Shown piece by piece: positions 22,739 to 23,128 of a stretch of 64,000 nucleotides of DNA. A program made the translations under genes and the position numbers. This DNA comes from a bacterium (lineage in GTDB: Bacteria > Cyanobacteriota > Vampirovibrionia > Obscuribacterales > Obscuribacteraceae): positions 248,001 through 312,000 of the forward strand of contig WGMS01000001.1 in assembly GCA_016124935.1 (NCBI GenBank), written 5' to 3'. Each line of letters opens with the position of its first letter. Positions within the stretch are counted from its first letter, which is position 1. Under the pieces are notes generated by a model that was not told the origin of the DNA, did no database searches, and saw nothing but the letters and a program-made list of their open reading frames with translations.

Positions 22739-23128
22739 ATGAGTAATTCGGTGTTAAAAAACGACAAGAGCTTTAGTCTGCTATTCTGGGGTTTCTTGAT
22801 CCTGGCAGGCTGCCTGGTGGCGCTCAAAGAGCATCATCAAGAAGACAACTCGAATATTCTAGTTCTTTTCGACAAGACGAGAGAAGCGATCTCGCAGCAA
22901 AAGAAAGTCCCCGTCGACCAGATAACTTTGAAGTCTAAGTTTAATAGGGACCTTAACTTTCAGGACCTCGACCAGGATACCCTTGCGCTCCAATTGAATA
23001 AGAAGATGGGAATAGATCTGGATTTGAATGTTTTCAGAAAGCTGGAAACCGTGGGTGAAGCAGTCGACTACATAAGAACACGAATGGAATTGAAACACGA
23101 AAAATCCGGCTCTAAAAATGGCAAATAG
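22739..23128 (+). CDS. Membrane-anchored acyl-carrier-protein-like protein lacking the phosphopantetheine Ser
   Basis: TM helix (SLLFWGFLILAGCLVAL) followed by VPVDQITLKSKFNRDLNFQDLDQDTLALQLNKKMGIDLDLNVFRKLETVGEAVDYI, which aligns without gaps to ACPs (DLGADSLD...TVGDAVDYI) with Asp at the Ser position. Confidence 0.7.
   Translation: MSNSVLKNDKSFSLLFWGFLILAGCLVALKEHHQEDNSNILVLFDKTREAISQQKKVPVDQITLKSKFNRDLNFQDLDQDTLALQLNKKMGIDLDLNVFRKLETVGEAVDYIRTRMELKHEKSGSKNGK

Follow-up and report, generated by a model that had tools for sequence, protein, structure and literature searches.

A membrane-anchored acyl carrier protein-like protein with aspartate at the phosphopantetheine serine position in a member of the Obscuribacteraceae

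The P0001 locus

The window analyzed here is a stretch of 64,000 nucleotides from contig WGMS01000001.1 (assembly GCA_016124935.1; positions 248,001 to 312,000, forward strand) of a bacterium of the family Obscuribacteraceae, a non-photosynthetic relative of cyanobacteria. The source genome is metagenome-derived and comprises 4.4 Mb in 43 contigs at 89% completeness. The gene under study, P0001, encodes an acyl carrier protein (ACP)-like protein and lies between a pyruvate phosphate dikinase (PPDK)-regulator gene and a GNAT N-acetyltransferase gene (Table 1).

Table 1. Coordinates of P0001, its parts and the neighboring features in the window
Feature	Coordinates	Strand	Basis
PPDK-regulator gene, divergent, upstream neighbor of P0001	21647-22498	-	
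Weak sigma-70-like promoter match	22676..22704	+	9/12; scan gave 4 sites against 1.8 expected, no evidence alone
9-codon upstream ORF MNKLSAESS, in frame, ending 6 nt 5' of the P0001 ATG	22703..22732	+	Direct reading
P0001, ACP-like membrane-anchored protein	22739..23128	+	129-aa ORF, ACP homology
Hydrophobic anchor, residues 12-29, FSLLFWGFLILAGCLVAL; lipobox LAGC with Cys25 at 22811-22813	22772..22825	+	Lipobox pattern, hydropathy, flank charges
ACP-like domain, residues 43-116	22865..23086	+	Profile and PDB matches, AlphaFold2 model, Foldseek
Asp76, codon GAC, in the ACP phosphopantetheine-Ser column (QDL for DSL)	22964..22966	+	Direct reading, alignments
GNAT N-acetyltransferase, 186 aa	23118..23678	+	Pfam Acetyltransf_1, E 3.7e-7
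Terminator-like hairpin 3' of the GNAT gene	23692..23721	+	13-pair stem and T tract

The original prediction had the GNAT gene overlap P0001. The overlap amounts to 11 nt if the first ATG of the GNAT ORF is used and disappears if translation starts at the alternative in-frame ATG at position 23139. Because of the 11-nt overlap and the hairpin that follows the GNAT gene, a transcript of the two genes is likely, and the hairpin probably ends this unit. GNATs that are 35-42% identical to that of the window occur in eight other genomes of the family, and an ACP-like gene beside the GNAT is absent in all eight. When synteny was followed through the GNAT and the PPDK regulator, an ACP-like gene was found at neither locus in the relatives. 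In one of them (G013), the GNAT retains its downstream BioD-like AAA_26 neighbor without an ACP-like gene. The association of P0001 with the GNAT is positional and lineage-specific.

The codon fit of P0001 is lower than that of the flanking housekeeping genes, and the same holds for the next three genes. The GNAT, zinc-ribbon/DprA and BioD-like genes (23118-25717) form a slightly atypical block, with GC3 values of 0.44-0.48 against 0.55-0.64 in the flanking genes. The gene at 23765-24862 (+) encodes a 365-aa protein in which an IS1595-type transposase zinc ribbon is joined to a DprA-like winged helix. In addition, a perfect 14-bp palindrome, CTTTCAGCTGAAAG, is located at 22711-22724 within the short upstream ORF and may be an operator.

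Loss of the attachment serine and the acidic surface

P0001 residues 43-115 match the NCBIfam ACP models with E values of 3.6e-10 to 7e-10, and residues 43-116 align without gaps to ACPs of the PDB, with the best E value being 5e-7 (1x3o) and the others weaker. Against two family models, the protein scores below the curated cut-offs, at 18.4 bits (E 0.0026) against a cut-off of 20.8 for Pfam PF00550 (PP-binding) and at 38.9 bits against 70.5 for TIGR00517. By sequence comparison, the similarity to type II fatty acid synthesis (FASII) ACPs is far above chance, and P0001 is assigned to the ACP superfamily by homology across the whole domain, though under the families' own cut-offs. The NCBIfam, PDB and Pfam matches thus bear out the ACP-like domain that had been proposed; the ungapped alignment was likewise recovered, over about 74 residues rather than the 42 first reported.

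The replacement of the modifiable serine by aspartate, which turns DSL into QDL, was read correctly in the original prediction. The GAC codon of Asp76 lies two base changes away from the nearest Ser codons, so a single base error cannot account for it; a sequencing error is ruled out as its origin by the two changes needed and by the alteration of adjacent residues. The surrounding loop, KFNRDLNFQDLDQD, contains no substitute Ser or Thr, and P0001 lacks the DSL motif with a phosphopantetheine-accepting Ser that marks a functional carrier. By comparison, Ser is present in all 85 ACP-motif matches from the ACP loci of the order, a count from overlapping loci in which genomes are counted more than once. 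The genome of P0001 itself encodes a normal AcpP, 32% identical to P0001, that keeps DSL and is located between fabG-like and fabF-like genes (G000:C33); the carrier role is therefore already filled.

The substitution is accompanied by a change in the surface of the domain. P0001 keeps 22 of the 27 hydrophobic ACP columns, a number reached by none of 100,000 shuffles, and only 5 of the 18 acidic columns, a number that 12,623 of 100,000 shuffles also reach. None of the other ACPs in the alignment keeps less than 71% of the acidic columns. The isoelectric point of the P0001 domain is 8.2, versus 4.1 for the AcpP of the same genome. Helix II of known ACPs docks the phosphopantetheinyl transferase AcpS and the fatty acid synthesis enzymes. 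In P0001, this helix, QDLDQDTLALQLNKKM, has N-K-K where AcpP has E-E-E, and the acidic helix II of a functional carrier is thus missing. Since the Ser loss is accompanied by the loss of the recognition surface, there is a strong case against a carrier, and P0001 is very unlikely to function as one. The non-carrier role that had been suggested instead, here read as structural or binding, is well supported by the Ser loss, the ACP-like domain and the hydrophobic anchor.

Predicted fold, membrane anchor and distribution

P0001 is predicted to adopt the four-helix ACP fold, in a model that depends on the ACP alignment supplied. When AlphaFold2 was given an alignment of 31 ACPs taken from contigs of bacteria and viruses, it returned an ACP fold, as anticipated, with a pLDDT of about 95-97 over residues ~41-115, and Foldseek matched this model to solved ACPs with target TM-scores of mostly 0.81-0.91 and rmsd values of 1.0-1.6. 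The single-sequence model was poor (pLDDT 57); ACPs still head its Foldseek list, but with E values above 0.1 and an rmsd of ~9. Because the model without an alignment is poor and the aligned model is consistent with homology, the fold assignment leans mainly on the strong homology.

The transmembrane (TM) helix that had been placed before the domain corresponds to a hydrophobic segment with a 19-residue Kyte-Doolittle maximum of 2.25, which is sufficient for a TM helix. The segment also includes the lipobox LILAGC (LFWGFLILAGC), and its Cys25 makes a lipoprotein signal peptide the alternative. The PS00013-style lipoprotein rule, which requires a Cys at positions 15-35, a K or R within the first seven residues and an uncharged h-region, is satisfied with Cys25 and K7, and a gene for signal peptidase II (LspA) is encoded in the genome. 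The hydrophobic stretch extends beyond Cys25 (CLVAL) and is also compatible with an uncleaved TM helix. From its sequence, the N-terminus of P0001 is thus predicted to be either a lipoprotein signal peptide or a single TM helix. The flanking charges (+2/-1 before the anchor and +1/-3 after it) predict that the N-terminus is inside. Under the lipoprotein and TM readings alike, the ACP-like domain is predicted to lie outside the cytoplasm and would therefore be away from CoA, the transferase and the GNAT.

An ortholog of P0001 was found neither in the 52 other genomes of the order nor in the class sample (382 genomes, cut-off 1e-9) or the phylum sample (386 genomes, cut-off 1e-8); the class and phylum cut-offs are strict, chosen to exceed the ACP background, and a strongly diverged ortholog could escape them. 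The two other genomes of the phylum sample with matches to P0001 have ordinary DSL ACPs, and GTDB contigs and plasmids yielded no ortholog and ordinary ACPs at most. The genus is represented by one genome in the data. The homolog survey brought up no ortholog bearing DSL: the DSL proteins that the P0001 searches found comprise paralogues of the ordinary AcpP type and a single exported-looking ACP of probably separate origin. In a tree, P0001 has a branch length of 10 and long branches join, so the tree does not resolve its origin.

A candidate binding module among ACP-like proteins

Ser-less ACP-like proteins are already known. DUF1493 proteins (PF07377), which occur in three relatives (G026, G032 and G045), resemble P0001 in being single-domain, ACP-like and Ser-less. 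However, they have Gly in the Ser column (DxDG), differ in their C-terminal part and lack the N-terminal anchor, and P0001 has no PF07377 match in a Pfam search to E 10, which listed PF00550 only. Besides P0001, several Ser-less ACP-like proteins with Gly in the Ser column occur in genomes of the same order (L143, L144, L145 and L147), and three of them match DUF1493. A family of proteins of about 188 aa, represented in the genome of P0001 by G000:C29:114991-115554 (-) (= L148:2992-3555) and in relatives by L159-L167, looks like an ACP after circular permutation. The N-terminal MGLDSVELVMAIEEEFG corresponds to ACP helices II-IV, the central part is ACP-like but degenerate, and helix I with ...TRDLGVD comes last. 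Some members have Tyr, Leu or Gly at the Ser position. This family is conserved in the order, and no other genome of the phylum sample has it.

Compared with the FASII AcpP (TIGR00517, PF00550), including the copy in its own genome, P0001 shares the 74-residue ungapped homology and the predicted fold but differs by its lack of an attachment Ser, its lost acidic surface, its basic pI and its N-terminal anchor. A relative, G014, encodes an exported-looking ACP (L071:4022-4453) that resembles P0001 in that a signal peptide, including a lipobox-like site, precedes the ACP domain. Unlike P0001, this protein, possibly an exported ACP, keeps an intact DSL and is encoded 3.5 kb from the G014 acpP gene. 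It scores 51 bits to AcpP versus 28 bits to P0001 and, judged by sequence, probably arose independently. P0001 stands out by combining an Asp in place of the Ser and a basic surface with an anchor that probably places the domain outside.

What could an ACP fold do without its prosthetic group? Among published accounts of ACPs that lack the Ser or are secreted or periplasmic, the only useful precedent found is the mitochondrial mACP of Plasmodium falciparum, which has Phe in place of Ser and is an essential structural partner of Isd11-Nfs1 (PMC8547962). Like P0001, it is an ACP homolog with the Ser replaced, and it works without phosphopantetheine; an ACP can therefore function without the arm (PMC8547962). 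The mACP is, in contrast, mitochondrial and eukaryotic and carries another replacement, and evidence of an Isd11-like partner for P0001 was not found.

We propose, with moderate confidence and as the most likely reading, that P0001 is a lineage-specific ACP paralogue that has turned into a membrane-anchored binding module. A FASII ACP paralogue would have given up the carrier function by losing both its acidic face and the Ser that takes phosphopantetheine while keeping the four-helix fold, and would have gained an N-terminal membrane anchor, either as a lipoprotein signal peptide or as a single TM helix. The ACP fold may then dock onto a putative membrane or envelope partner without a prosthetic group; both this binding role and the existence of the partner are what we infer from the changes described above. 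Its occurrence as a single-genome gene without an ortholog, its low codon fit and the alignment-dependent fold model count against the binding-module reading. More tentatively, the protein may represent an ACP fold that has left the cytoplasm entirely and, anchored by lipid or by a TM helix, serves as a prosthetic-group-free binding module of the envelope; the ACP of a relative would then be a second exported one, of separate origin.

The main rival explanation, which we consider rather doubtful, is that P0001 is a decaying duplicate, namely an acpP copy that was fused by chance to an anchor and has neither selection nor function. Its presence in one genome only and its very long branch fit such decay, as do the lack of a clear ribosome-binding site, the poor codon fit and an in-frame stop codon located 6 nt upstream of the start. 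However, the 129-codon frame is intact despite heavy divergence, and a core that is kept while the acidic surface disappears is not what uniform drift should produce. Because core and surface behave differently, there is a moderate case against simple decay.

It appears unlikely that P0001 is a membrane-tethered adaptor or regulator of the GNAT, with a cytoplasm-facing domain that brings the enzyme to the membrane or acts as a decoy resembling acyl-ACP. The overlap and the terminator suggest a two-gene unit, and GNAT-fold enzymes that use acyl-ACP exist, such as FeeM, whose carrier FeeL is encoded in the FeeM operon. Nevertheless, the eight relatives have the GNAT without an ACP-like neighbor, the charge bias and the lipobox place the P0001 domain outside the cytoplasm in the predicted topology, and an armless protein cannot donate acyl groups. 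The working link between the two genes that had been suspected is thus not upheld, and an acyltransferase pair of the FeeM/FeeL type was rejected given the missing Ser and the missing pairing in relatives. Finally, it is highly improbable that P0001 is a carrier with an alternative attachment site, or one that holds an acyl chain non-covalently in its core or through a lipidated Cys25: the acyl-shielding hydrophobic core of ACPs is kept, but the loop has no Ser or Thr, the acidic recognition residues are gone, and an extracytoplasmic site would be without CoA and transferase.

The claim for P0001 as a binding module is modest because it concerns one gene from one metagenome-derived genome. If it is true, P0001 joins the few known cases of an ACP fold serving binding alone, as a bacterial example that does so outside the cytoplasm, where carrier chemistry is impossible. 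P0001 would then separate the protein-docking role of the ACP fold from its carrier role.
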